Source of the DNA: a virus
Direction: 5' to 3' (one strand)
DNA length: 20,576 nt
IMG/VR virus record: IMGVR_UViG_3300035703_000462
Span: 1 to 20,576 of that record
The position numbers and the translations under genes were made by a program. Shown here piece after piece: positions 772 through 18,779 of the stretch; within the stretch, counting starts at the first letter, position 1, and each line of letters begins with the position of its first letter. The notes under the pieces are model-generated. The model saw nothing but the letters and a program-made list of their open reading frames with translations. It did not search any database and was not told the origin of the DNA.

Positions 772-915
772 TCAGCGCTTCCCGCGCTTGGCAAGGCACA
801 TGCCCGCCGCGCGACACGTTGCCGCGGCTTTGCAGTCCTTGCAGGGCTTGAATGCCCCGGACTTGATCTTGCCGCCGTCGCGGTAACCCGCCGGCTTCAT
901 CCCTTTCGCTCGCAT
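772..915 (-). CDS. Small cysteine-rich basic phage protein
   Basis: This is a 47-residue protein with ATG at 915 and a good ribosome site (GAGG, five bases before the start). It has many Lys, Arg and Gly residues and four cysteines arranged CKDCKAAATCRAAGMC. That spacing could bind zinc, but it does not match a zinc-finger family I can name. It is the first gene of the leftward late series (915, 769, 578, 392), and each later gene follows closely. The reading frame stays open upstream to about 1050, but the ribosome site and the small-protein character favour the internal ATG. Confidence 0.68.
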   Translation of the reverse strand: MRAKGMKPAGYRDGGKIKSGAFKPCKDCKAAATCRAAGMCLAKRGKR

Positions 916-1058
916 ACTTTCCTCGGTGCTGTTCAACAGCTGTGATGCCTGTTTTTCCCGCGCGGGAAATTCTTTGATCGCCCCTAGAGCCCTCAAGGAG
1001 GCGCTTAGTGAGTCAACCCATGGATGACCGCATTGTGGTCGTCCTTGCACAATCCCAT
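916..1058. other. Intergenic region upstream of the late operon, with a 16-bp palindrome
   Basis: This gap between the divergent late and right operons must hold the late leftward promoter, but I cannot place a convincing -35/-10 pair. It contains a perfect palindrome TTTCCCGCGCGGGAAA at 954-969, a copy of ACAGCTGT at 936-943, and, on the plus strand, AAGGAGG at 995-1001 followed by a GTG. If the late operon depends on a Q-like antiterminator, its binding element and pause site should be here. Confidence 0.4.
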
Positions 1059-1088
1059 TTGACTATCGGTAATACCAAACGGTATTGT
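1059..1088 (+). promoter_or_regulatory. Rightward sigma70-type promoter of the right operon
   Basis: A -35 TTGACT (1059-1064) and a -10 TATTGT (1083-1088) are 18 bases apart. The repressor palindrome at 1071-1086 fills the spacer and enters the -10, so bound repressor would block polymerase. Transcription should begin near 1095, three bases before the 5' strand of the structured RNA element. Motif matches only; no experimental support. Confidence 0.6.
1071..1086. promoter_or_regulatory. Repressor operator AATACCAAACGGTATT
   Basis: This is a perfect 6+6 palindrome with a 4-bp centre. It is the exact reverse complement of the 16-mer found at 12470 and 13372, next to the immunity genes, which is strong evidence for one shared repressor. 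It sits between the -35 and -10 of the right-operon promoter. Confidence 0.8.
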
Positions 1089-1097
1089 TCGCTCCGT

Positions 1098-1346
1098 GGC
1101 GGCGCTAGCTGCACTCCGGAGTGAGACCGGGGACGCGAACGGCTCGCGGTAAGTGGTCGGACTCCGGAGAAGCCAGCTTGAGCGCTGGATCGATGGGAAG
1201 GTCGGGTGGCGCCGACCGGTGAGGACCCGGGATGACCGGGACGAGCAATCGACGCTCGTTGCGCTGGAGTGGCTACGACCGGCGCTCACTTGTCGATGGA
1301 CGTCAGTCCCTGCCTCCTCAGGTGCGAGGGGGCAGTAGCGGACGCC
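1098..1346 (+). ncRNA. Candidate structured leader RNA, closed multi-hairpin fold
   Basis: The 290 nt between the promoter and the first gene (1378) contain no convincing reading frame but a dense series of perfect stems. A closing helix pairs GGCG (1098-1101) with CGCC (1343-1346) and GCTA (1104-1107) with TAGC (1336-1339). Inside lie seven hairpins: 1114-1169 (CTCCGGAGT with ACTCCGGAG, then GACC/GGTC, then CGCGA/TCGCG), 1173-1188 (CCAGC/GCTGG), 1200-1217 (GGTCGG/CCGACC), 1226-1240 (CCCGG/CCGGG), 1241-1259 (ACGAGC/GCTCGT), 1261-1285 (GCGCTGG/CCGGCGC) and 1310-1335 (CTGCCTCCTC/GAGGGGGCAG). The last stem abuts the closing helix. The predicted start of transcription, near 1095, coincides with the 5' end of the fold. 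I do not recognise a known RNA family: the RNase P, tmRNA and group I core motifs are absent. It could be a cis antitermination or translation-control leader, or a processed small RNA. Confidence 0.6.
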
Positions 1347-1377
1347 CTGTCCTGTTTCAACTCTCTAGGAGGTTCCC

Positions 1378-1485
1378 ATGGCTCTGTCTGATCCCTACAG
1401 CTTCTTCTCGCGTGAACGTCGCCCCGCCAAGAGCAAGCCTGCCAAGCGCAAGCCTGCTGCGAAGGGCAAGGCGGTGCGCAAGTGA
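1378..1485 (+). CDS. Tiny Lys/Pro/Ala-rich basic protein (histone-tail-like)
   Basis: This is a 35-residue protein with ATG at 1378 and a near-perfect ribosome site (TAGGAGGTTCCC before ATG). After MALSDPYSFFSRERRP it becomes a run of Lys, Pro and Ala (KSKPAKRKPAAKGKAVRK) like histone H1 tails or AlgP-type repeats, so it probably binds nucleic acid. It is the first gene after the structured leader. Its end overlaps the GTG of the next tiny gene by four bases. Confidence 0.65.
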   Translation: MALSDPYSFFSRERRPAKSKPAKRKPAAKGKAVRK

Positions 1486-1568
1486 AGCGCTGGTTCGTCG
1501 CTATCGCGTGGACGTTTTTGCCGAACGTCGTCTGGCTTGTCCCCCTCTACTTGCGGGGGTCGCTGTGA
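1482..1568 (+). CDS. Tiny membrane protein (28 aa)
   Basis: GTG at 1482 overlaps the previous stop (GTGA). The product, beginning MKRWFVAIAW and ending LRGSL, is one hydrophobic helix with a basic N-terminus, so it should sit in the inner membrane with Nin-Cout orientation. It depends on coupled translation, since its own ribosome site is weak. The next gene's ATG overlaps its TGA (TGATG). Function unknown. Support comes from the tight overlaps and the matching character of its neighbour. Confidence 0.5.
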   Translation: MKRWFVAIAWTFLPNVVWLVPLYLRGSL

Positions 1569-1648
1569 TGCCTGACCTGATCGGCTACGTCGCCTGTTTC
1601 ATTCTGCTCGCGCTGTGTGTGCGCGGCATTCAACAAGTTCGCATCTAA
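1568..1648 (+). CDS. Tiny membrane protein (26 aa)
   Basis: ATG at 1568 shares a base with the preceding TGA. The product (MPDLIGYVACFILLALCVRG, then IQQVRI) is a single membrane helix of about 17 residues with a short basic C-terminus. It is the second of two back-to-back one-helix micro-proteins, which could form a pair in the membrane. No family is recognised. Candidate roles such as superinfection exclusion or holin/antiholin are speculation. Confidence 0.5.
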   Translation: MPDLIGYVACFILLALCVRGIQQVRI

Positions 1649-1660
1649 CCGGAGGTTCCC

Positions 1661-1972
1661 ATGAGCTACATCAAACCGCCCTACGGCGTGATCATCTACA
1701 CCCGCTCCAACCGTGACGGCTCGATCGAGGCGAGCACCGACATCGGTGACAACGCCCGGTCATTCTCGATGCAGGTCGAGCACTCGGGCGCCCCTCGCTG
1801 CGCAGAAGCGCACGAAAGAGTGGCTCGCGAGCTGCTACGCATCATGCACGGCGGCTTGTTGCTCTCCCCGTGGGAGTGCGTCGCTATCGGGGACAACCCG
1901 AGCCGATACACCGGCAGCTGTTACGCCTTCGTGTTCGCGCGTGGCACCGAATGGGGCAAGGTGGCGGCATGA
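1661..1972 (+). CDS. Conserved hypothetical phage protein (103 aa)
   Basis: ATG at 1661 follows GGAGGTTCCC, the same ribosome-site sequence as at 1369. The 103-residue product is soluble, starts MSYIKPPYGVIIYTRSNRDG and ends GTEWGKVAA. It has no membrane span and no motif I can assign. Its stop overlaps the next start (ATGA). It belongs to the series of small right-operon proteins preceding the MoxR/VWA pair. Confidence 0.7.
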   Translation: MSYIKPPYGVIIYTRSNRDGSIEASTDIGDNARSFSMQVEHSGAPRCAEAHERVARELLRIMHGGLLLSPWECVAIGDNPSRYTGSCYAFVFARGTEWGKVAA

Positions 1973-2277
1973 ACTACGCAAACCGTCTAGGTTATTCCGA
2001 CGTCGAGCCCTACGAAATCGTCCGTCGCGTCAGTGACAAGACGTTCGATGTTCGCCCCATGCGCGCTGAGCGCGACCCTGAGTGGAAGCCTGAATTCGTC
2101 CCCGGCGGCTTCTGCGGCACCGTGGTGAATCAGAACTCGCAGCGCTGGCTGTACGAGTCTGACCCGTCGCAAGCGCTGGTCCGCATTCGGCTCGGCAAGC
2201 AGGGCTGGCGAGACGCCGGCGGCTCGCGCTACGCCATTTCGGCGACGCCCTTCAAATTCTACGACTACAACTTCTGA
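1969..2277 (+). CDS. Conserved hypothetical phage protein (102 aa)
   Basis: ATG at 1969 overlaps the previous TGA. The protein starts MNYANRLGYSDVEPYEIVRR and ends with the distinctive ATPFKFYDYNF. That ending and the central GGFCGTVVNQNSQRWLYESD recall a small phage protein family of unknown function. The mixed charge and aromatic content suggest a compact beta-rich domain. Translational coupling is likely. No function is assigned. Confidence 0.72.
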   Translation: MNYANRLGYSDVEPYEIVRRVSDKTFDVRPMRAERDPEWKPEFVPGGFCGTVVNQNSQRWLYESDPSQALVRIRLGKQGWRDAGGSRYAISATPFKFYDYNF

Positions 2278-2290
2278 CCCGGAGGTCACC

Positions 2291-2500
2291 ATGAGTACTC
2301 AGCTGGTTGTTCAGCATCGCCGTGTCTACGGCAACCCTGCCATCTACCCTGTCAACGAGACCGCACAGCTGTTTGCGTCGATCGCCGGCACCCGGACGCT
2401 ATCGCATCCGGTGCTCGAAGCCGCTGAGCGGCTGGGCTTTCAAGTCGTCGTCGAGCCTGAGCCGGTGTCGGCGTCAGTTGCTAAGTGGGTGCGCAAATGA
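2291..2500 (+). CDS. Small conserved hypothetical phage protein (69 aa)
   Basis: ATG at 2291 is preceded by GGAGGTCACC. Residues 14-40 contain NPAIYPVNETAQLFASIAG followed by TRTLSHPVLE. I associate this pattern with small phage proteins adjacent to replication or accessory genes, but with no known function. It ends KWVRK, and its TGA overlaps the start of the next tiny membrane protein. Confidence 0.68.
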   Translation: MSTQLVVQHRRVYGNPAIYPVNETAQLFASIAGTRTLSHPVLEAAERLGFQVVVEPEPVSASVAKWVRK

Positions 2501-2643
2501 ACAGCGCCCTTCGCCGTTTGCATGAGCGCAGACAATACCGTCTGCATGTTTTTCGCGTCGTTTGCGAGTGCTTGCTGTTAGTCGCCATGGTCGCGGCGCT
2601 GATCAGCACGTACGTCGCCGTCGATTTCGTCTCTCAACTCTAG
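2497..2643 (+). CDS. Small one-helix membrane protein (48 aa)
   Basis: ATG at 2497 overlaps the preceding TGA (ATGA). The first 18 residues are strongly basic (MNSALRRLHERRQYRLHVFR). A membrane helix of about 22 residues follows (VVCECLLLVAMVAALISTYVA) and then a short outside tail, VDFVSQL. The positive-inside rule places the N-terminus in the cytoplasm. It ends TAG at 2641-2643, and that TAGGAGA also supplies the ribosome site for the ATPase gene, so the two are tightly linked. It may anchor the MoxR/VWA module at the membrane; this is inference from position only. Confidence 0.58.
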   Translation: MNSALRRLHERRQYRLHVFRVVCECLLLVAMVAALISTYVAVDFVSQL

Positions 2644-2652
2644 GAGATCAAC

Positions 2653-3867
2653 ATGGACCTGAATCATCTCAACAAGTCGCAACTCAACGAGGTGTTGCGC
2701 CGTGTCACTGGTCGCGGTCGCGACCTTGCGCGTCACTCGAAGGGCGACATCATCCTGTCGCTCGACTCACTGCCTGAGGCGGCGGTCGCTGCTGCAGTGC
2801 AGTCGCTGGGGCTCATCACGGGCGCGTGGTCAGGGGCTGCGTCTGCCCAAGCTGAGCCAGCTGTCGAACAGCTGCCGCATATCGCACCGGTGGCGACCAA
2901 GTCGCTGGGCGAGATTTTCGGCATCCGCGGCAAGCATGCGGCACTGACCGTCGAGGTCTGGAATGACCCGGCAGCGCCGGCGCTTGACCCGCTTTACAAG
3001 TTCGAGCCTGAACAGCTGTCTTCCGCTGTTTCCGCGATCAAGCGCGGGCGCAACGTGTGGTTGGCTGGTCCTGCCGGTACCGGTAAGACCGAGTTCGTCA
3101 AGAACGTCTGCGCCGGCTTGGGTCGCGCGTTCGTGCGTGTGTCGTTTGACTCTGGCGCTGAGCGTTACGAGTTCATCGGCGGCGAGCGCGTCAAGAACGG
3201 CTCGACGGTCTACCAGCAGGGCGTCGTGCTTCGTGGCATGACTCGCCCGGGCGCTGTCGTGCTGCTCGACGAAGTGTCGTTCGCACGTCCGGAGTACCTG
3301 TCGGCGCTTCACGCCGTGTTGGAGCCTGAAGGCTGCGTGACCATCCCTGAGACGGGTGAGGTCGTGCGCAAGGCTCCGGGCGTCGTGTTCTTCGCTGCGG
3401 ACAACTCGAACGGTCGCGGCGACTTCTCCGGCATGTACGTCGGCGTTCGTGAGATGAACGTCGCGTTCGTCAACCGGTTCGCGAAAACGCTGGTGTTCAG
3501 CTACCTCGATCAGTCGGTCGAGGCGAAGGTGATCGCTGGTCGCGCCGGCTGCACTCAGCAGCTGGGCGAGGTGATCGTCAACTTCCTGACCGTCTGCCGA
3601 CAGGCTGGCGATCAGGCGCAGCTCGATCACGTGCCGACACTGCGCGAAGCGTTCTATCTCGCGGAGGCGCTGACCGATGGTCAGGCACCGCGCAAGGCGT
3701 TCGAGGAGTGCATGGTCAACCGTGCGTCGCCGGAGTCGCAGGAAGTCCTGCAGCAACTATGGCGGGCGAACGTGTCCGACTACGCCATCTCTGAGGCGCT
3801 CGACGGTCGGTCAACTCCTGACCCACTGCAACAGTCTGTCGAACAACCCACCGCGGAGGCTGCGTAA
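2653..3867 (+). CDS. MoxR/CobS-like AAA+ ATPase
   Basis: This 404-residue protein has a SAP-like N-terminus (1-40), a linker, and a MoxR-type AAA+ core. The Walker A is GPAGTGKT (139-146), Walker B is AVVLLDEVSF (201-210), the sensor-1 region is AADNSNGRGD (248-257), and VNRFAK (273-278) carries the probable arginine finger R275. The core resembles CobS, NorQ/CbbQ and GvpN. Such ATPases form hexamers and, with a VWA-domain partner, remodel or load metal/cofactor into target proteins. The next gene, overlapping by one base (TAATG), encodes exactly such a partner. Phage copies are often labelled cobalamin genes because of CobS/CobT similarity, but no cobalamin pathway is present here. ATG at 2653 has AGGAGATCAAC upstream. 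The target in the phage cycle is unknown. Confidence 0.88.
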   Translation: MDLNHLNKSQLNEVLRRVTGRGRDLARHSKGDIILSLDSLPEAAVAAAVQSLGLITGAWSGAASAQAEPAVEQLPHIAPVATKSLGEIFGIRGKHAALTVEVWNDPAAPALDPLYKFEPEQLSSAVSAIKRGRNVWLAGPAGTGKTEFVKNVCAGLGRAFVRVSFDSGAERYEFIGGERVKNGSTVYQQGVVLRGMTRPGAVVLLDEVSFARPEYLSALHAVLEPEGCVTIPETGEVVRKAPGVVFFAADNSNGRGDFSGMYVGVREMNVAFVNRFAKTLVFSYLDQSVEAKVIAGRAGCTQQLGEVIVNFLTVCRQAGDQAQLDHVPTLREAFYLAEALTDGQAPRKAFEECMVNRASPESQEVLQQLWRANVSDYAISEALDGRSTPDPLQQSVEQPTAEAA

Positions 3868-5936
3868 TGTCTAATCGCATCAACGGTGCCCGGGTTAAGG
3901 CTGCGGCTCGCGCTCACGCGAGCAAGCAGCTACGGAACCTTGGGTTCTATTTCGCTGATCATGCCGGCAGCGCGACCTTCAAAGGTCAGACTGCTTTCGC
4001 CAGCTGGACCTACGGCGCGCCCGGTGCGATCGAGAGCTATCGCATCAACTACCCGGCGCTGCCTGACAACGCCATGCTGTCGCGCCGCGAGGCTGACTTG
4101 ATCGCAGCGTACACGCTGCATGAACTAGGTCACGTCGCGTTCACCGACAACCACGTCGCGCGTGGCAGCGACCGCATCCTGTTCCACTTGTGGAACGGCA
4201 TCGAGGACGCCCGCATCGAGCATGCCGTGATCGTGTCTGGCAAGGCGCGCGGCGCTCGCTCGATGTTCAAAAAGCTGATGTCGAAGTACACGACGACGCA
4301 TCTCAGCGAGTCGTTCAACCCGACGTCGATCAACAGTGCTGCGTTCGCGCTCGCGCTGGTCTGTCGCGCTGCGTACGGCGACGGCAACGGCTTCGCCAAG
4401 AGCTTGCTCGCCCGCATCCCTGCGCCGCATCAGGCGTGGTATGCGCGAGCCGCTGAAGGCGTGGTCAGCTTGCCGCTCGATCGCAGCGGTACGGCGGGCG
4501 CTCTGCAGCTTGCCCGCGAGTTCTTAGATTCGTGGCTTGCCGCTTTCCCTGACGCGATCAAAAAGCCGGAGCCGGAACAGCAACAGCTGTCCGACGAGGG
4601 CGAGTCGGAAGACGACGGCGAGGAAGCCGGCGACGACGACAGCGACGAGTTCAGCTTTGGCGATCGGTCCGATCCGTACGACGACGAAGAGTCGGACGAC
4701 GACGAGTCGGGCGGCTTCGACAGCGACGACGCTGAGTCCGAGGCTGACAAGCTTGCCAAGCAAGAGCTCGAAGAGCAGCTTGCCGAAACAGCTGAGTCGC
4801 CTACTGAACAGGGTGACGACAGTCTGTTCGCTGGCGCTGACGACGAGCCGGAAGAGTCCGGCGAAGGCAGCGGCAGCGGTGCCGACGAGGCGCCGTACAA
4901 GCCTGTCGAACAGGACCAGTACGACGCGGAGAAAGAGCTCGCGCCTGAGCCCAACATCGACGACGTGTTCAAGTCGGCTCGCGAGCGCACTAAGAGCGCT
5001 GTCGACTTGCCGGCGAGTGTGCCTCCTGCCCGGTCGCACATGGCGCGCTGGCGCAACATGGCTGGCAAGGACGAGGCGGCGGTTCGTCGCGCGGCAAAGA
5101 AGCTGCACAAGGCGGCGTTGCCGGCGCTCAAGGCTCAGCTCTACCGGATTCTCAAAGCTCCGGAGATTTGTGGCTGGGACGCTGGCGCCATGGGCGGTCG
5201 CTTCGACGGCAAGCGCGCACCGCGCATGTTCGCGGGTAGCGAACAGGTGTTCAAGCGCCGCTGGCTGAGCGAGGGCATCGACACCGCGGTCTCGATCGTG
5301 ATCGACATGTCCGGCTCGATGTCCGGCGATTCGATCAAGCAGGCGGTCGACCTTGCGTACACGGTCGCTGAGGCTTGCGAGTCTGCACGCGCCGATGTCG
5401 AGGTGCTCGGCTTCCGCACGAACGGCGGGTACGGCGGCTCAAGTAGCGGCACGTACGGTCTCGACGGCGACTACCACTTGGGCACGGCGCAGTCGTCGGC
5501 AACGCTGGTCGTGGCGAAGACCTTCAAAGATAAGCTGTCCAAGGTCGCGCATCACTTCGCATTCCTGAAGCAGTGTGCAGGCGGCGGTACGCCGGACTAC
5601 ACCGCTGTGAAGGGCGTGTGCGAACAGCTGTCGCAGCTGCCGCACCAGCGCAAGGTCGTGATCGTGATCACTGACGGCTTCGGCGAATCGTCTAACAGCT
5701 ACTACGACGAGGCGGCGCAACGCTATCGCACGACGTACAGCATGAAGACGCTGTCCGATGCGTCGTACCAGCTGTTTGGCTGCGACGTGATCGGCTTCGG
5801 CATCTACTGCAATCCGCAGGAGTTCGCCGATGCGTATCCGATCGGTGCGCCGGTTCGTCTGTACGACCTGCACAAGACCGCGCTCAAGGGCGTGATCAAG
5901 CAGCTGGAGTTGCGCGACCACCGTCGCGTGGCTTGA
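3867..5936 (+). CDS. CobT-like metallopeptidase-VWA fusion protein
   Basis: This 689-residue protein has three regions. The N-terminal domain carries HELGH (85-89), a gluzincin-type HExxH motif, followed by NGIEDARIE (110-118), which could give the third metal ligand. The middle (about 236-345) is extremely acidic, rich in Asp, Glu, Ser and Gly, and probably disordered. The C-terminal VWA domain (about 472-670) has a complete MIDAS: DMSGS (480-484), GGGTPDYTA with T575, and ITDG with D603. The layout matches CobT and related VWA partners of MoxR ATPases, with an apparently intact protease motif. The TAATG overlap with the ATPase gene implies coupled, roughly equal synthesis. The likely role is substrate selection and processing by an ATPase-driven complex; the substrate is unknown. 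The acidic block should not be read as a frameshift, since the frame is continuous. Confidence 0.87.
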   Translation: MSNRINGARVKAAARAHASKQLRNLGFYFADHAGSATFKGQTAFASWTYGAPGAIESYRINYPALPDNAMLSRREADLIAAYTLHELGHVAFTDNHVARGSDRILFHLWNGIEDARIEHAVIVSGKARGARSMFKKLMSKYTTTHLSESFNPTSINSAAFALALVCRAAYGDGNGFAKSLLARIPAPHQAWYARAAEGVVSLPLDRSGTAGALQLAREFLDSWLAAFPDAIKKPEPEQQQLSDEGESEDDGEEAGDDDSDEFSFGDRSDPYDDEESDDDESGGFDSDDAESEADKLAKQELEEQLAETAESPTEQGDDSLFAGADDEPEESGEGSGSGADEAPYKPVEQDQYDAEKELAPEPNIDDVFKSARERTKSAVDLPASVPPARSHMARWRNMAGKDEAAVRRAAKKLHKAALPALKAQLYRILKAPEICGWDAGAMGGRFDGKRAPRMFAGSEQVFKRRWLSEGIDTAVSIVIDMSGSMSGDSIKQAVDLAYTVAEACESARADVEVLGFRTNGGYGGSSSGTYGLDGDYHLGTAQSSATLVVAKTFKDKLSKVAHHFAFLKQCAGGGTPDYTAVKGVCEQLSQLPHQRKVVIVITDGFGESSNSYYDEAAQRYRTTYSMKTLSDASYQLFGCDVIGFGIYCNPQEFADAYPIGAPVRLYDLHKTALKGVIKQLELRDHRRVA

Positions 5937-5954
5937 CAGCTGTTCAACAACAGG

Positions 5955-5973
5955 CGGGGGCGTTCAGCCCCCG
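5955..5973 (+). promoter_or_regulatory. Intercistronic GC hairpin just before a ribosome site
   Basis: The stem CGGGGGC (5955-5961) pairs with GCCCCCG (5967-5973) across a five-base loop. No T-run follows, so it is not a standard intrinsic terminator. It lies between the VWA gene stop and the GGGAG ribosome site of the GTG at 5984. It could slow readthrough, protect the upstream mRNA end or lower translation of the downstream genes. Confidence 0.5.
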
Positions 5974-5983
5974 GGAGAAATTT

Positions 5984-6181
5984 GTGAGTCAGTCCCAGAT
6001 ACGGGTCCCAGCTCATCGAGCTGCGGACCTCAAGCGCGTGGCTGATCTGGTCAGTCGGTTCTCCGCGAGGGGTAACCAAGTGACTCCGCAGTATGTGCTG
6101 CACCACCTGAAGTACGCCTACCAAGTCGGCTGGCGTGACGGTGCATTCCCAGAACTATTGAAGCAAGAGGAAACCGTATGA
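5984..6181 (+). CDS. Small hypothetical protein (65 aa)
   Basis: I chose the GTG at 5984 because GGGAG lies six bases upstream; the frame is open back to a TTG at 5933 without a ribosome site. The product starts MSQSQIRVPAHRAADLKRVA and continues with helical stretches (VTPQYVLHHLKYAYQVGWRD). It could be a ribbon-helix-helix or small helical protein, but the pattern is not decisive. Its TGA overlaps the next ATG. Confidence 0.62.
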   Translation: MSQSQIRVPAHRAADLKRVADLVSRFSARGNQVTPQYVLHHLKYAYQVGWRDGAFPELLKQEETV

Positions 6182-6444
6182 GTAACTCGATCTATATCGT
6201 TCACATCAAGACCGAGTCAGAAGGCTGGGTGCCGCTGGCGAAAAAGCCGACCGCACCCTACGTGTTCGACAGCGCTCGCGATGCGTGGCGCATGGCAGAC
6301 ATCTGCTACCCCGACCAGTGCCGCTCGATGCGGCTGGGCGGTGACGAGGTGGTCCGGGTCACCGTGCTGTCGCCCGATCGGTTCCGACAGCTGTTCCCTT
6401 CTCTGCCTACCCCTGAAATCCCACAACTGCTGGAGGCTACATGA
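6178..6444 (+). CDS. Hypothetical protein (88 aa)
   Basis: ATG at 6178 has GAGGAAACCGT before it and overlaps the previous stop by four bases. The product starts MSNSIYIVHIKTESEGWVPL, a beta-rich opening, and contains VFDSARDAWRMADICYPDQC in the middle. No recognised domain. It precedes, with an ATGA overlap, the HD hydrolase and may be co-produced with it; a functional link is not shown. Confidence 0.68.
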   Translation: MSNSIYIVHIKTESEGWVPLAKKPTAPYVFDSARDAWRMADICYPDQCRSMRLGGDEVVRVTVLSPDRFRQLFPSLPTPEIPQLLEAT

Positions 6445-6995
6445 CTAACGGCGAGGCGTATCGATTCGCCAAGGCTGCCCACGAAGGACAGCTGCGAGGC
6501 GACGGCTTAACCCCCTACTTCAACCACGTCCAGAGCGTCGCCCTGCTGGTTGCGTCTGCGGGCGGGACCGACGCGGCGATCGAGGCAGCTCTGCTGCACG
6601 ACACGATCGAGGACTGCGGCGTCACCCACGGTGAGCTGGTCGAGCGCTTTGGCGCCGAGGTGGCGAACCTTGTCGGCGAGGTCACTTTCCCCGCCGGCAC
6701 CCCGAATAGAAAACGGTTGCAGATCGAGGCGGTCCGCGGGATGACCCCGCAGGCTCGGCTGATCAAGCTTGCCGACATCATGGCGAACCTAGCAGACCTG
6801 CCGAGCGCCCAGTGGGACGCCGGTAAGCGTGAGCGGTGCCTGAAGCACCTACTCCGGATGCGGGAGGCGCTGCGCGGTACTCACTTGGCAATCGAGGATG
6901 CGTTCGACATCCTTTCGGACTCCATCGTCGAGGTGGTAATACCTAACGGTGGTCGAGGAGAGATGGAGATTCGCCATTTCGAGGGTGGCGTGTAG
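6441..6995 (+). CDS. HD-domain alarmone hydrolase (Mesh1/SpoT-hydrolase-like)
   Basis: This 184-residue single-domain HD protein carries the signature of the (p)ppGpp hydrolase family. AHEGQLRGDGLTPYFNHV (13-30) supplies R19 and the first metal ligand H29, ALLHDTIEDCGVT (50-62) supplies H53-D54 and E57-D58, and LIKLADIMANL (107-117) supplies D112. Length and motifs match the small alarmone hydrolases (Mesh1 type), which remove the 3' pyrophosphate of ppGpp-like nucleotides; some phage members neutralise toxSAS alarmone-synthetase toxins. ATG at 6441 is coupled to the previous gene and preceded by TGGAGGCTAC. It is the last gene before the terminator at 7039. Substrate preference (ppGpp versus ppApp) cannot be read from sequence. 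Confidence 0.85.
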   Translation: MTNGEAYRFAKAAHEGQLRGDGLTPYFNHVQSVALLVASAGGTDAAIEAALLHDTIEDCGVTHGELVERFGAEVANLVGEVTFPAGTPNRKRLQIEAVRGMTPQARLIKLADIMANLADLPSAQWDAGKRERCLKHLLRMREALRGTHLAIEDAFDILSDSIVEVVIPNGGRGEMEIRHFEGGV

Positions 6996-7038
6996 TTATA
7001 GTTGGATACACCCTCGCGGATAGATTAACAGGACCCTT

Positions 7039-7083
7039 GCCCCGGTGCAACAGCTGTGATACGGCTGTTGTACCGGGGCTTTT
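7039..7083 (+). terminator. Strong intrinsic terminator of the right operon
   Basis: A 16-bp stem, GCCCCGGTGCAACAGC (7039-7054) with GCTGTTGTACCGGGGC (7064-7079) and one G-T pair, encloses a nine-base loop and is followed by TTTT (7080-7083). It separates the rightward operon from the convergent leftward operon ending at 7088. The stem contains a copy of ACAGCTGT (7050-7057). Leftward transcripts would form the stem but lack a U-run. Confidence 0.87.
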
Positions 7084-7087
7084 CCGT

Positions 7088-7639
7088 TTATGGGTCAGTC
7101 AGCTGGGCGGTTACTTTCCGGCGGGCTGCCCGGAACGCATCCTCGATGATCTCCTTACCGAGATCGATGCGCTTCTCCCACCAGTCGCGAGTCGGGTCTT
7201 GGTCGTGTATCGACATTGTGTCTACACGCCACTCCCACGTAGGCATGAACACCCCTGTTCCCTCGCAGTGCGGACAGCTGTCGCTCTGCTTAGGCTGCTG
7301 GGCATCGAACGTGTACGACACCAGTCGATAACCTGTTCCGTTGCACGATCGGCAAATCCTAATCGTCCATTCGAGCAGCGCCTGTCGCGCGATCACCTCT
7401 GCGCGAAGCTTGCCGAATCCGATCCTCTTTCGGCGCCCAGCTCGAAGCAGGGTGTCCGTAAGCAGACGCAGTGTGCGATCGAGCTCGACCACGTGACCGG
7501 CAGAGATCAATGATTGCAGCGAAGCACCAAGCTGCGGGGCAAACGCAAGCGCGGCGACGACGTCGGCGTCTGTGTGGTGCTCGTCCTGTCTCAGGTTCTT
7601 TGAGTTAAGCGCCTGCCCTATGCGTTCATGTGTTGCCAC
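7088..7639 (-). CDS. Zinc-site protein, candidate late antiterminator (Q-like)
   Basis: This 183-residue protein starts at GTG 7639, where GGAGG is five bases upstream. An alpha-helical N-terminal half rich in Arg and Leu is followed by four cysteines as CRSCNGTG (96-103) and CPHCEGTG (122-129), spaced C-x2-C-x22-C-x2-C. DnaJ-type CxxCxGxG repeats and the zinc site of lambda-type Q antiterminators both look like this. It is the last gene of the leftward replication operon, directly after DUF1364 and nuclease genes. That is where Q sits in lambdoid phages, after the nin region, so a late-gene activator is the best guess. Against it, overall similarity to Q cannot be judged here. It overlaps the upstream gene by 14 nt. 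Confidence 0.6.
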   Translation of the reverse strand: MATHERIGQALNSKNLRQDEHHTDADVVAALAFAPQLGASLQSLISAGHVVELDRTLRLLTDTLLRAGRRKRIGFGKLRAEVIARQALLEWTIRICRSCNGTGYRLVSYTFDAQQPKQSDSCPHCEGTGVFMPTWEWRVDTMSIHDQDPTRDWWEKRIDLGKEIIEDAFRAARRKVTAQLTDP

Positions 7640-9369: not shown

Positions 9370-9654
9370 TCACTGCTTGTATTTGGTCATCGAGCGCCGC
9401 TTCTCCGCCGCTGTCATACCGCTTCGCTTGGTTTTCGTGTCGTTTGGTATTGTCACAGCGCGCGGCAAAGGCACGTACGGCTCGCCGGGTGGAAAGTCTT
9501 TTCCCCATTCGCTGTCGCGGACCTTCAGGTACTTGATCTGCGATCCCGGGAAAGCCTCCATCATGGCGCGCATGTCCTTGAACATCTGGTCAACAGCTTG
9601 GTCCTCGTTACGAACAGCTGTGAAGTAGTCTTTGTCCGCTTGCGTGAACTTCAC
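9370..9654 (-). CDS. Hypothetical protein (94 aa)
   Basis: GTG at 9654 overlaps the helicase stop (GTGA), and AGGAG lies eight bases upstream. The first half is helical and acidic (QADKDYFTAVRNEDQAVDQM). The C-terminus is basic (KTKRSGMTAAEKRRSMTKYK). No domain is recognised. The gene contains one copy of ACAGCTGT and a partial operator-like sequence near 9441-9452. Confidence 0.65.
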   Translation of the reverse strand: MKFTQADKDYFTAVRNEDQAVDQMFKDMRAMMEAFPGSQIKYLKVRDSEWGKDFPPGEPYVPLPRAVTIPNDTKTKRSGMTAAEKRRSMTKYKQ

Positions 9655-10655
9655 CAGACGAACTCCTCTGCCTCCTCGTTCAAAGCTTTCGTCTCGGTGG
9701 CAATGATCCCCGGCACCTTGACTTGCGGCACCTCGAACATGGGTGGTCTACCTTCGATGCGCCTGTCGTGATAGCTGTTCGACGTCTTGTGAAACCACAG
9801 CTTGATCGTTGCCTCTTCGCCGCCGTCACGCTGCTTCACAATGATTACGCTGGCGTCGTAGGCGCGCTCCCATTCGGCGCGCTTCTCCATCGTCATCTCC
9901 TTGTCACCACGCTGCAGCTCGGCTTCTTTCTTTTTGTTGCGGTAGACGATGATCGCGTTGTCGACGCGATCAGTGATAGAGCCTGATCCCTTGATGTCGA
10001 ACTTGCCCGGGATCGTCTTCTCATCGAGCAGCTTGCGAACGTGATGCACGATATGAATATGCACACCGAGCTCGCGCGCGCTGGCGCATAGGTCAAACAC
10101 GAAATCCTTCTGCGAGTTGTAGTCGTCCTCGCCTGAGACACAGCACATCAGGTTGTCGATGAAGAAGTGCTGCACCTTGTGCTCTAGGGCAGCGTACTTA
10201 ACGATGCCGAGCATGTCCTTGTTCGAGGCTGAGCCGCGCACGTCGGCGTACCAAAGACGGTCACCGCACCACGCTAGGAAGTCCTTCACGTACTCCACAG
10301 GTGGGATGCCGCCCGCGGCTTGAAGGATCAGGCGCTTGTTCAGCGCCTCAGGCAGCAGCTCAAAGCTCGCGACGCCGCAGCGGTAGCCCTGCTGCATGAA
10401 GCCGAACATAACCTGTGAGATCACCATCGACTTGCCGTGCCCGTTCGCGCCCGCCCACACCGTAACTTCGCCCGGTCGGAACTGGATGTCTGCGTAACCA
10501 AATGGAAGTCGGGCATGGTTGCCGGCGTTGTCACCGAACATGCGCTCGATGGTCTCGTCGACGAAGTCCTGCGGGCGGCGCATCTTGTGGTTCTTCGTCT
10601 CGGTCGACTTCAGGTAAGCAGCAAAGTCGATCGAGTCAGGGATGGTGTTATACAT
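9651..10655 (-). CDS. Replicative DNA helicase, DnaB/Twinkle-like core
   Basis: This 334-residue RecA-fold helicase has Walker A GANGHGKS (69-76), a Walker B-like HFFIDNL, an HHVRK motif, and KGSGSITDRVDNAIIVYRNK in the position of the DnaB H4 region. There is no DnaB N-terminal domain and no primase domain, as in short phage DnaB-like or Twinkle-like helicases. ATG at 10655 has GGAG seven bases upstream and overlaps the previous gene by eight bases. A Met-poor Arg/Ser-rich extension upstream (to 10691) lacks a ribosome site and was not used. Together with the loader at 11097 it forms the replication initiation pair. Confidence 0.87.
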   Translation of the reverse strand: MYNTIPDSIDFAAYLKSTETKNHKMRRPQDFVDETIERMFGDNAGNHARLPFGYADIQFRPGEVTVWAGANGHGKSMVISQVMFGFMQQGYRCGVASFELLPEALNKRLILQAAGGIPPVEYVKDFLAWCGDRLWYADVRGSASNKDMLGIVKYAALEHKVQHFFIDNLMCCVSGEDDYNSQKDFVFDLCASARELGVHIHIVHHVRKLLDEKTIPGKFDIKGSGSITDRVDNAIIVYRNKKKEAELQRGDKEMTMEKRAEWERAYDASVIIVKQRDGGEEATIKLWFHKTSNSYHDRRIEGRPPMFEVPQVKVPGIIATETKALNEEAEEFVW

Positions 10656-11100
10656 ACGCGAACTCCGAGATCGCCTGATCGAAGTACTCATCCCACTCTG
10701 CGTTCTCGAACTGCATGTACGGCTCGAACTCTAAGCGCCAGTCCCACGTGCGACTGTCGTCGCGCGTCTGAACAGATTCGAGGGTCGGCATGTACGTCAC
10801 GTTGTATCCCTTACGCTCAGCGAGAAACCAAGCGCGCACCGGGAACGCTTCGCGGCAGATCTTCTCGAAGACCCCAATCGTCGCGTGTTCCGCATTGCAG
10901 ACCACCATTGCCGGCAGCTTCTTCAAGAATCGCCAATCGTAGTCCTTGCCCGGGATTGCTCTTACGAATGCGTAAGGTGCCACACTAAAACGTATTCGTG
11001 GTGGCAACAAAGAAACGATGACCAATTCTGGCGCAAGCTTGCGCATTCGGGAGAGGAGTATCGACTCCCCCCCGAACGGTAGGCGAGTCGAGTCGATCAT
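10648..11100 (-). CDS. Hypothetical replication-operon protein (150 aa)
   Basis: ATG at 11100 overlaps the loader stop (ATGA); a TTG two codons earlier is less likely. The start is MIDSTRLPFGGESILLSRMR, followed by a basic, hydrophobic stretch with PPRIRFSVAPYAFVR. There is a possible alpha/beta core (KLPAMVVCNAEHATIGVFEK) and an acidic, aromatic C-terminus. I do not recognise it. Its position between helicase loader and helicase suggests a replication role, but no catalytic motif is visible. Confidence 0.68.
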   Translation of the reverse strand: MIDSTRLPFGGESILLSRMRKLAPELVIVSLLPPRIRFSVAPYAFVRAIPGKDYDWRFLKKLPAMVVCNAEHATIGVFEKICREAFPVRAWFLAERKGYNVTYMPTLESVQTRDDSRTWDWRLEFEPYMQFENAEWDEYFDQAISEFAYV

Positions 11101-11873: not shown

Positions 11874-12159
11874 AGGGAACCTCTGTAAGTAAAGGAAACA
11901 CTGAGATCCTTTACTTCCCTCTCCCTTCCCTCCCCCGCCCCCCTCCATGACCCCCCCACCCCCCATGCCCTAAGACACGGAGTTCCACAGTGGAGGGGCG
12001 ACCCAGCAGCTTTAGTTTTAGTTCGAGCCACCGCGCTCTCGTCCTGCAAGTGTGGACAGGATGAGAGAGTCGTCCCCCAGCGAACACCGCTTTACATTCC
12101 GGCTCAGCGATATCGAGCCTCGCCCCCCGATCGGGTTGGGGAGCACCCCACCTAATCGG
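11874..12159 (-). promoter_or_regulatory. Untranslated structured G-rich leader between Cro-like gene and next gene
   Basis: These 286 bases hold no credible gene. In leftward order, an imperfect hairpin at 12159-12127 (CCGAT/ATCGG outside, TGGGG/CCCCA inside) follows the Cro-like stop directly. An 11-bp stem, 12036-12046 with 12057-12067, comes next; it is perfect with one G-U only if transcribed rightward. Then an almost pure purine tract covers about 11967-11916, with six or more runs of three to seven G, able to form G-quadruplexes in the leftward RNA. Finally AGTAAAGGA (11888-11896) with TCCTTTACT (11907-11915) forms a hairpin just before the ribosome site at about 11880. It may act as an attenuator, an antitermination site or a translation switch. 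Confidence 0.5.
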
Positions 12160-12450
12160 TCAGCTGGCGTTCAGCTTGTTCTTCACAAATTCCCAGTCGA
12201 GCGCATCACGGCGCGCGACGAGGTCACGGAAGTCGAGCTTGCCGCCGCTGTGCTTGTCGATGGCGATCGCCATCTGCAGTGAAACCGTGTTCGCGTCTCG
12301 GTAAACCAAGCTGGTCACGTAAGCGCCGGACACGCCGCACGTGTGACCGAGGCGATCTCGCTCGATCTGTGTCAGCGACCGGATATAGGTCTTGTGCGGT
12401 GCCTCAAGCTGGGCGCCTTCTTGCGTCACAGCGAGTGCTTGGTCAGTCAT
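12160..12450 (-). CDS. Cro-like small DNA-binding regulator
   Basis: This 96-residue protein is divergent from the CI-like gene. A helix-turn-helix is visible in the centre: RDRLGHTCGVSGAYVTSLVY, then LQMAIAIDKHSGGKLDFRDL, which resembles the YdaS/Cro-type end where the last helix is followed by a D-rich RDLV. Two ATGs lie in tandem at 12453 and 12450; AAGGAG is three and six bases upstream respectively, so 12450 is preferred. As first gene of the leftward early operon with an operator in its leader, it fits the Cro role of reducing cI and early transcription during lytic growth. Sequence alone cannot separate Cro from a CII-like activator. Confidence 0.72.
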   Translation of the reverse strand: MTDQALAVTQEGAQLEAPHKTYIRSLTQIERDRLGHTCGVSGAYVTSLVYRDANTVSLQMAIAIDKHSGGKLDFRDLVARRDALDWEFVKNKLNAS

Positions 12451-12655: not shown

Positions 12656-13312
12656 ATGAGTAGCATCTTCGATGTCCGTCGCGAGAACCTGCTATCGCTG
12701 ATCCGTGACTCGTACCAAAACAACCGGGCAGAGTTCTCGCGAAACACCGGGAAGAATCCGAACCTGATCAACCTTGTACTAACCAATAACCCAGAGTACC
12801 GGCGAAACATAGGTGAGAAGCTTGCTCGGGATATCGAGAAGCGTTGCGGTATTGCCGAGGGCTGGCTGGATTCGCCCCGCGGGATGGGTGTTCGGCGGGT
12901 TACAAAGATCCCCATCCTGACCGACGCAGGGGACGTCCCTGACCACGCCCCACTAGAGAGCGACTATCACGTGACCCTGCCAGTCGACGACCCTACGCTG
13001 GCTCTGCGCTCGACCGGGACGGGCAACCTCGTCATCGTTATTGCGCAGGAATCCTGCATGGCGCCCGCGTTCCATGTCGGAGACTATGTCTGGGTCGATC
13101 TTGGGGTGAAGAAAATCTCGGGCGACGGCATCTACGTGATCCGCATGTCGGACGGCAGCCTGTTCCGTCGCATTCAACAGCTGCCCACCGGGGAGTTGCG
13201 GGTCAGCACCGACGACCCCGCCTATGCTCCTCAGATCCTTAAAGGCAAGGCTATCTCCAGCCTCCGCATCATCGGCAAGGCAACCGCCTGTAGCCATCGC
13301 ACAGCCCTGTAA
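12656..13312 (+). CDS. CI/LexA-like phage repressor with altered S24 active site
   Basis: This 218-residue protein has an N-terminal DNA-binding domain (about 6-72, with RENLLSLIRDSYQNNRAEFS and ending IEKRCGIAEGWLDSP). A linker with IPILTDAGDV follows, where A91-G92 matches the usual Ala-Gly self-cleavage site. The C-terminal domain is S24-like: QESCMAPAFHVGDYVWVD (131-148) and SLFRRIQQLPTGELRVSTDD (168-187). In autocleaving LexA/CI proteins these blocks read SM and VKR; here the Ser position is C134 (preceded by S133) and the Lys position is R171. ATG at 12656 has GAGAGG upstream. It probably binds the AATACC-N4-GGTATT sites in this window and maintains lysogeny. RecA-stimulated cleavage may be lost or altered. 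A perfect terminator follows the gene. Confidence 0.85.
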   Translation: MSSIFDVRRENLLSLIRDSYQNNRAEFSRNTGKNPNLINLVLTNNPEYRRNIGEKLARDIEKRCGIAEGWLDSPRGMGVRRVTKIPILTDAGDVPDHAPLESDYHVTLPVDDPTLALRSTGTGNLVIVIAQESCMAPAFHVGDYVWVDLGVKKISGDGIYVIRMSDGSLFRRIQQLPTGELRVSTDDPAYAPQILKGKAISSLRIIGKATACSHRTAL

Positions 13313-17711: not shown

Positions 17712-18779
17712 ATGAGTGTGTACCTAAGAGGGCGTCTGTACTGGATCGAGGTGCGCGATCCGGCGGGTAATCGGATTCGGGAGTCAGCCGGAACCGATGA
17801 CCTGATTAAAGCTCAGGCGTATCACGACATTCGCGTTCAACAGTTGAGGCTTGGTCATACCAAAGCCCCAACGTGGAACGACGCAGTCGCGAGATGGATG
17901 AGCGAGCGCTCTGATAAACGATCGCTGGATCGTGATCGTCAGATGGCAGATTGGTTGGAGAAGTACTGGTCAGACATGACCTTCGGTTCTATCACGGACG
18001 ATGACATTCGCGCCGTGGTAGACAAGAAGCGCCGTGAGACTAGCGCCTCGAATGCGAATCACTATCTGAAGTTCATCAAGGCGTTGTTTAACAGATCGAT
18101 GGAGTGGAAGTGGGTTGCGTCGAACCCGGTGAGGATGAAGCCGTACAAGGTGAACAATCGCCGAGTACGGTTCCTGTCTGAGCAGGAGTACGCAAGGCTC
18201 ATTGGTGAGCTGCCACGTCACTTAGCGGTCATGGCGGAGTTCTCGGTGCTGACCGGTTTGCGGAGGTCCAATGTGACGGGACTGAAGTGGAGCCGGGTGG
18301 ACCTTGAGCGCCGCTTGCTGTGGGTGTCTTCGAGCGACTACAAGTCGGGTCGGGACCACGGCATGCCACTCAGTGACAGGGCGGTCGAGATACTTCGCGG
18401 AGAACAAGGGCAACACCCGTTGTATGTTTTTACCTACAACGGGAAGCCGGTGACTCAGGTCAATACGAAGGCTTGGCGCAAAGCCCTGAACCGGGCAGGC
18501 GTCAGTGACTTCAGGTGGCATGACCTGCGCCACACCTTCGCGAGCTATCACGCCATGAACGGAACCCCACTGCTCACGCTGAAGGCATTAGGAGGCTGGC
18601 AGAGCCTCGATATGGTGAACCGGTATGCTCACCTATCCTCGGAAGGATCGCGTCTGTACGTCGCTAATAGCGCTGTACAGGCATCACCGGGGGTGTGTGT
18701 GGGCGATGTGGGGAATGTGGGTGCGAAACCGGGCGCACCGGGCGACCACCAACCAGCTCAACTGCGCGTAAGTAGTTGA
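17712..18779 (+). CDS. int: Tyrosine-family phage integrase
   Basis: This 355-residue site-specific recombinase has an N-terminal arm-binding and core-binding part (1-155) and a catalytic domain. Its residues are all visible: R184 in TGLRRSNVTGLKW, K211 in SSDYKSG, H270 and R273 in WHDLRHTFAS, W296 in GGWQ, and nucleophile Y305 in NRYAHLS. ATG at 17712 has AGGAGTCAGCT upstream. A low-complexity Gly/Pro C-terminal tail follows Y305 by about 50 residues. It points toward attP, 15 bases beyond its stop, as in most tRNA-targeting phages. It should integrate the phage into a host tRNA-Arg gene and excise it with a directionality factor I cannot identify. Confidence 0.95.
   Translation: MSVYLRGRLYWIEVRDPAGNRIRESAGTDDLIKAQAYHDIRVQQLRLGHTKAPTWNDAVARWMSERSDKRSLDRDRQMADWLEKYWSDMTFGSITDDDIRAVVDKKRRETSASNANHYLKFIKALFNRSMEWKWVASNPVRMKPYKVNNRRVRFLSEQEYARLIGELPRHLAVMAEFSVLTGLRRSNVTGLKWSRVDLERRLLWVSSSDYKSGRDHGMPLSDRAVEILRGEQGQHPLYVFTYNGKPVTQVNTKAWRKALNRAGVSDFRWHDLRHTFASYHAMNGTPLLTLKALGGWQSLDMVNRYAHLSSEGSRLYVANSAVQASPGVCVGDVGNVGAKPGAPGDHQPAQLRVSS

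Follow-up and report, generated by a model that had tools for sequence, protein, structure and literature searches.

Evidence for a conserved, structured non-coding RNA at the head of an early operon in uncultivated phages

The early operon and its predicted promoter

The window, that is, the whole stretch of DNA analysed, is a 20.6-kb IMG/VR virus record (20,576 nucleotides) from an uncultivated bacterial virus, and all the phages compared with it are metagenomic contigs. The features on which the argument depends are the following.

1059..1088, + strand: sigma-70-like early promoter, TTGACT-18 nt-TATTGT, with a predicted start at about 1095
1071..1086: perfect operator palindrome AATACCAAACGGTATT, inside the promoter
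1095..1352, + strand: predicted structured non-coding leader RNA, window type, about 260 nt, nine helices
1378..1485, + strand: first gene of the operon, encoding a basic peptide of 35 residues
1661..6995, + strand: remainder of the early operon, with small genes, then the CobS/CobT-like pair, then more small genes
2653-3867: CobS-like AAA+ ATPase (early operon)
3867-5936: CobT-like vWA protein (early operon)
7039..7079, + strand: strong terminator-like hairpin closing the operon, 19 pairs and a T-rich tail
9651-10691: DnaB-like helicase
11985..12160, - strand: hairpin-rich non-coding stretch behind the cro-like gene (z -2.4), in the slot held by RF02932 in relatives
12160..12450, - strand: cro-like small gene, so called from its position beside the repressor gene and operator; orientation opposite to the repressor
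12656..13312, + strand: CI-like repressor gene (phrog_4, 5e-17)
17712-18779: integrase

The cro-like gene has no match in Pfam and is 68-79% identical in DNA sequence to its counterparts in related phages.

An earlier note, made from the letters of this DNA, had described a repressor-controlled promoter directly ahead of a run of hairpins. Both elements of such a promoter are predicted here: the sigma-70-like site, the sole one found in 900-7100, overlaps a perfect operator palindrome. Perfect palindromes AATACCnnnnGGTATT lie at 1071, 11603, 12470 and 13372, and with up to 3 mismatches the window contains 10 operator matches, compared with 2.0 expected by chance. The arrangement recurs in the relatives described below: the RNA is promoter-proximal in every locus read, and in 13 of 14 distinct loci the best promoter-like hexamer pair found by a script ends 2-6 nt ahead of the RNA start (10 nt in the exception, L011). 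These pairs score 7-10 of 12, those of L010 and L016 being the weakest. As the RNA-start anchors were set by eye at the first paired or conserved bases, this spacing is to be taken as a regularity and not as a mapped transcription start. The operators ahead of the RNA differ, with AATACCnnnnGGTATT in several loci and TGACAGTGCCTGTCA in the L256-L276 group.

Downstream of the RNA, an AGGAGG ribosome-binding site precedes position 1378. No convincing terminator was found between the RNA and the first gene in the three loci scanned, L013 having a weak candidate at 5412-5424, and no conserved intrinsic terminator that could serve as a target for the leader was found inside the operon. The first genes behind the RNA vary (basic peptide, hydrophobic peptides, other small proteins), and so does their spacing from it among phages with the same RNA. 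Some RNA-bearing operons, such as those of L256-L276, have no CobS gene in the stretch read; in that group the stretch includes a presumed DUF932-like gene. A conserved association with one particular downstream gene, as expected of a riboswitch or translation leader, was not found in these operons.

Several other features of the operons were recorded. In both window-type members the first gene after the RNA codes for a protein that is strongly basic (window 1378-1485; L010 4709-4909); no such first gene occurs in the other groups read, and the 35-residue peptide is not conserved in the phages with the pseudoknotted type of RNA. An N-like role for this peptide was considered and dropped, the peptide being confined to the window and L010. 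A small conserved protein with the pattern VYG.P.IYPV...AGTKTLT...LGY occurs together with the RNA in operons with little else in common (window 2291-2500, L013 5549-5818, L011 850-1068, and also L271, L262 and L267); the window copy matches neither Pfam nor PHROG. ARAGORN calls a tRNA-Asp within the CobT-like gene, at 4445-4541 of the window, which is probably a false positive.

Helices and relatives of the leader RNA

The dense run of hairpins reported in the earlier note is present on the + strand at 1095-1352, directly behind the promoter. The long-range stem said to enclose it, 1098-1107/1336-1346, had to be abandoned: it shows no covariation, relatives without the 5' strand keep the 3' strand (GCGGACGCC) almost unchanged, and the 5' strand overlaps the local hairpin 1099-1103/1108-1112. 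The minimum-energy fold was also replaced, as a working model, by the covarying helices. Its hairpin near 1241-1256 is missing in L010, the other window-type sequence, and the alternative pairing 1249-1253/1292-1296 has four compensatory changes relative to L010. The helices, all on the + strand and with their changes relative to L010, are as follows.

1099-1103/1108-1112: hairpin GCGGC-GCUA-GCUGC, invariant, by eye
1114-1119/1127-1132: hairpin CUCCGG-AGUGAGA-CCGGGG, 2 double and 1 single change, loop conserved
1134-1138/1144-1148: hairpin, 1 double and 1 single change
1173-1177/1184-1188: hairpin, 1 double change
1200..1217: hairpin GGUCGG/CCGACC, 2 single changes
1226..1240: hairpin CCCGG-GAUGA-CCGGG, GCGGC-GAUGA-GCCGC in L010, 3 double changes, by eye
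1249-1253/1292-1296: stem enclosing a hairpin, 4 double changes
1261-1267/1279-1285: enclosed hairpin, 3 double changes
1294..1352: 3' domain (64 bits), consisting of hairpin 1310-1319/1326-1335 and the motif UCAGnCC...GCGGACGCCC

By count, the listed helices contain 12 double and 7 single changes that preserve pairing. Four apparently broken pairs in hairpin 1226-1240 came from a one-base gap misplaced by the aligner; moving this gap by eye added 3 doubles, which raises the doubles to 15, beside the 7 singles, and leaves every pair intact. Six helices have at least two double changes, where 200 column shuffles gave 1.4 on average and at most 6, a count that by itself is suggestive but not decisive. 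The structure of the window type is convincing because nine helices agree without one broken pair, and some of the pairs are kept through G-U on the + strand. The two sequences differ by gaps of 1, 3 and 4 bases, in agreement with the absence of a reading frame across the RNA that had been noted earlier. The window type rests on these two distinct sequences, the window and L010 (L019 being a duplicate of the latter); scans of the viral collection gave only L010 and its duplicate contigs, and the window holds no second copy.

Folding energy was less informative. The region has a folding energy of -137 kcal/mol (z -3.75), lower than that of any of 200 shuffles, so the expectation that it would fold better than shuffled sequence was borne out, but the reverse strand folds equally well (z -3.61) and the measure is not diagnostic. 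Other windows of the same phage reach z -8.7 (mean -0.9, sd 1.5), and relatives with very strong covariation have z values of only +0.8 to -1.8, probably because nested folding ignores pseudoknots. We thus gave folding energy little weight.

Twenty-one loci were retrieved with the CobS-like protein as query, and the slot upstream of that gene was compared among them. In many of these loci homologues of the RNA lie at the same place. One group (L003-L009, L011, L013 and L157) has a 5' architecture unlike that of the window, namely an H-type pseudoknot followed by a multi-helix core. The 3' domain is common to the window, L003-L013, L256, L258 and L268, and is missing from L157. In the alignment of the pseudoknotted type (A4), 94.1% of cells pair and both sides have changed in 29 of 59 pairs, those of the H-type pseudoknot included, compared with a mean of 11.3 in shuffled alignments (0 of 500 as high) and 2-5 in slid controls; the helices were picked from nearly the same alignment, so that these counts lean towards structure. 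The covariance models provide a test without this bias, because the members that they find were outside model building. A pattern scan had given about 18 extra members (L256-L276 minus the chance hit L272), none of them used in the models. Of these unused members, L268, L256 and L258 are detected by the 3'-domain model R1 at 9e-12 to 6e-8; the core model R2 detects all 10 of the 10 new loci searched, at 8e-24 to 3e-19. With either model, each record searched contains one copy of the RNA at most.

In the members from L256-L276 the closing stem of the 3' domain is AAGAC/GUCUU or AAGGU/ACCUU, replacing CAGGGU/GCCCUG. The pseudoknotted group has a conserved boxA-like loop, G(U/C)UCUUU, and all distinct members aligned have a loop CUUUR whose sequence complements a conserved UAAAG. 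Since both motifs hardly vary, a contact between them is offered as a suggestion. A further set of loci, type III (L014-L020, L238-L245), also has a structured RNA in this slot, and some of its words are shared; its homology to the pseudoknotted type is plausible by eye, and the core model R2 does not detect it. In type III phages L015 and L020, at about 4500-6000, similar hairpin modules (e.g. GGTCGAAACCGG...GACGAGACC) are found repeatedly between successive early genes, immediately ahead of ribosome-binding sites. Two distant CobS-bearing loci, L186 and L187 (the same contigs as L021 and L022, respectively), likewise contain a long non-coding, GC-rich stretch in the 1.5 kb or so that precede the CobS-like gene. 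The slot of L186 carries the boxA-like CGCUCUUUC, and the folding energies of both are unremarkable.

The earlier note recognised no known RNA family, and cmscan of the whole window against Rfam 15 at the gathering threshold likewise gave no match for the RNA. Scans of 1040-1400 and of L013 5100-5480 with E values up to 5 returned chance-level matches only. Nucleotide searches with the window RNA, or with one of its pseudoknotted relatives, gave nothing real in phage and plasmid records, and when bacterial genomes were scanned for the pattern of the 3' motif, no convincing member appeared among the matches listed. A resemblance to RNase P, introns or tmRNA was considered and set aside, Rfam giving no match. 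In the literature we found no description of a phage RNA of this kind, and only the paper on HK022 put was relevant (PMC9378689). By these searches the RNA is a new family, absent from Rfam. Taken together, covariation, covariance-model matches in unused members and a position fixed relative to the promoter uphold the central idea of the earlier note, a real structured RNA that had not been recognised, and these sequence comparisons support the view that 1095-1352 encodes a genuine, conserved, structured and non-coding RNA.

A second RNA in the other early operon

Where the opposite early operon was read in related phages, a conserved structured stretch directly follows the cro-like gene. This stretch corresponds to Rfam RF02932 (Betaproteobacteria-1 RNA, function unknown), whose Rfam type is sRNA. 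The scores were 90.2 bits in L303 (1424-1541), 74.1 in L299 (1420-1542), 72.9 in L294 (1422-1542) and 69.1 in L296 (1421-1541), for a gathering cut-off of 49.4 bits. Ten of 30 records have RF02932 above the cut-off (G003, G004, G005, G007, G008, G011, G017, G022, G023 and G026), and the first seven of these also hold the leader RNA or its pseudoknotted counterpart. A DNA match places a cro-like gene just upstream of RF02932 in G003, G004, G005, G008, G011 and G017, and the sequence suggests one in G007; in G022, G023 and G026 the upstream gene was identified in no case. The RF02932 copies have 12 pairs changed on both sides, compared with 4.4 in shuffles, and a pseudoknot is among their helices. 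In the phages, conserved structure runs 3' past the Rfam model, with GURAAGG and a hairpin.

Neither RF02932 nor, above 49.4 bits, a match of the leader RNA to its model was found in the window, and covariance models detect no relationship between the two RNAs. The hairpin-rich stretch at 11985-12160 occupies the corresponding slot and may represent a further type of RNA. A promoter-like site follows RF02932 in L296 and L294, and for this reason the RNA may be dispensable there for the downstream genes. Outside the phages, 300 genomes from the order to which a Delftia genome belongs were searched, and 6 contained RF02932, 4 of them above the cut-off. In three of the four Burkholderiales loci read, no open frame on the same strand begins in the 1 kb downstream, and the leader RNA was not found in the four bacterial loci carrying RF02932. 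RF02932 and its bacterial occurrence are the sole basis for proposing Betaproteobacteria as the probable hosts of these phages.

Possible function and comparison with known systems

We propose, with a probability of about 0.42, that the leader RNA influences transcription elongation as HK022 put does, although it would be larger and differently folded. Transcription from the operator-controlled promoter would begin at or within a few bases of the 5' edge of the RNA, as judged from the predicted start, and the leader would fold while emerging from the polymerase and continue without a convincing terminator into the long operon of small genes and CobS/CobT-like genes. The folded leader, built from an upstream module of several types and an exchangeable 3' domain, would then act in cis on the elongation complex, and RNA polymerase would read through the long early operon. 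We favour an effect on transcription because the RNA begins at the predicted transcript start with no convincing terminator before the operon in the loci scanned, and because the presence of RNAs in both early operons parallels putL and putR of HK022. The independence of the RNA from the identity of the first gene, its position next to the promoter under different operators and the boxA-like loop of the pseudoknotted type all speak for such a cis effect. Against it, the window type and type III have no boxA-like loop, each phage has a single copy while the other operon holds an unrelated RNA, the leader is nearly four times longer than put (about 70 nt), and no conserved terminator was found inside the operon. 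The promoter-like site behind RF02932 in L296 and L294, and the bacterial loci where no same-strand frame starts within 1 kb of this RNA, also argue against it.

These last two observations fit better with a trans-acting phage RNA, cut or accumulating from the head of the early transcript and binding a host or phage factor, whose place behind the promoter would merely secure early, repressor-controlled expression. We consider this reading, the main rival, only somewhat less probable: the size of the RNA, its pseudoknots and conserved unpaired motifs (CUUUR/UAAAG) resemble those of RNAs working as particles, the second RNA is an sRNA in Rfam, and the leader is independent of the downstream gene, but neither a terminator nor a processing signal is seen at its 3' end, it is promoter-proximal in all loci read, and covariance models detect no link to RF02932. 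A 5' leader that stabilises the transcript or controls translation, shielding it from RNase or gating ribosomes at the first small genes, would account for a long untranslated region directly before AGGAGG. The earlier note had suggested translation control of the tiny genes; this is not favoured because unrelated first genes, at varying spacing, follow the same kind of RNA, and the elaborate conserved pseudoknotted core would exceed what stability needs, so that we hold such a leader to be improbable. GC-rich palindromes without function, arising by chance or as protein-binding DNA sites, would explain a folding energy that is alike on both strands and unexceptional for the phage; this reading is made very improbable by covariation that greatly exceeds the shuffled and slid controls, by base pairs maintained as G-U on the + strand and by model matches in unused members. 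The remaining probability goes to some other explanation.

The proposed effect on elongation may be part of a wider arrangement in which each early operon carries a large pseudoknotted RNA, the new RNA or RF02932, that alters RNA polymerase, or else some other host machine, with no phage protein involved. We regard this extension as rather unlikely; if true, early transcription would be under a novel form of control by RNA alone, and this would give the orphan family RF02932 a function. To our knowledge, very few RNA elements reprogram RNA polymerase unaided, and HK022 put is the standard example. The family described here is supported by covariation, stands at the start of early operons, has an exchangeable 3' domain and is accompanied by an RNA from an orphan Rfam family; it offers a testable case for more such elements, and RF02932 gains a genomic context behind cro in phages.

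EAR-type antiterminator leaders and riboswitches share with this RNA a large folded 5' leader before a long operon, but the leader RNA has no Rfam match, no visible expression platform and no conserved downstream gene. The boxA sites of nut and rrn resemble the pseudoknotted relatives in their boxA-like loop (UGCUCUUUA in L157) and promoter-proximal position; in contrast, the window type, L010 and type III have no boxA by eye, the leader RNA is far larger, and no N-like gene was identified. The closest parallel is HK022 put, which suppresses termination and pausing by binding the zinc-binding domain of the RNA polymerase beta' subunit. Put RNA is about 70 nt long, has two stem-loops and occurs as two copies with sequence similarity, of which putL lies at the PL start and putR about 270 nt beyond that of PR (PMC9378689). 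The leader RNA differs in its length of about 260 nt, its nine helices, the pseudoknots of the larger group and its single copy per phage, the other operon of ten relatives containing instead the pseudoknot-bearing RF02932, with which the leader shares no detectable sequence or model similarity. Like put, however, it lies directly behind an early repressor-controlled promoter (predicted from promoter and operator), and the other early operon of related phages has a structured RNA some 300 nt downstream.
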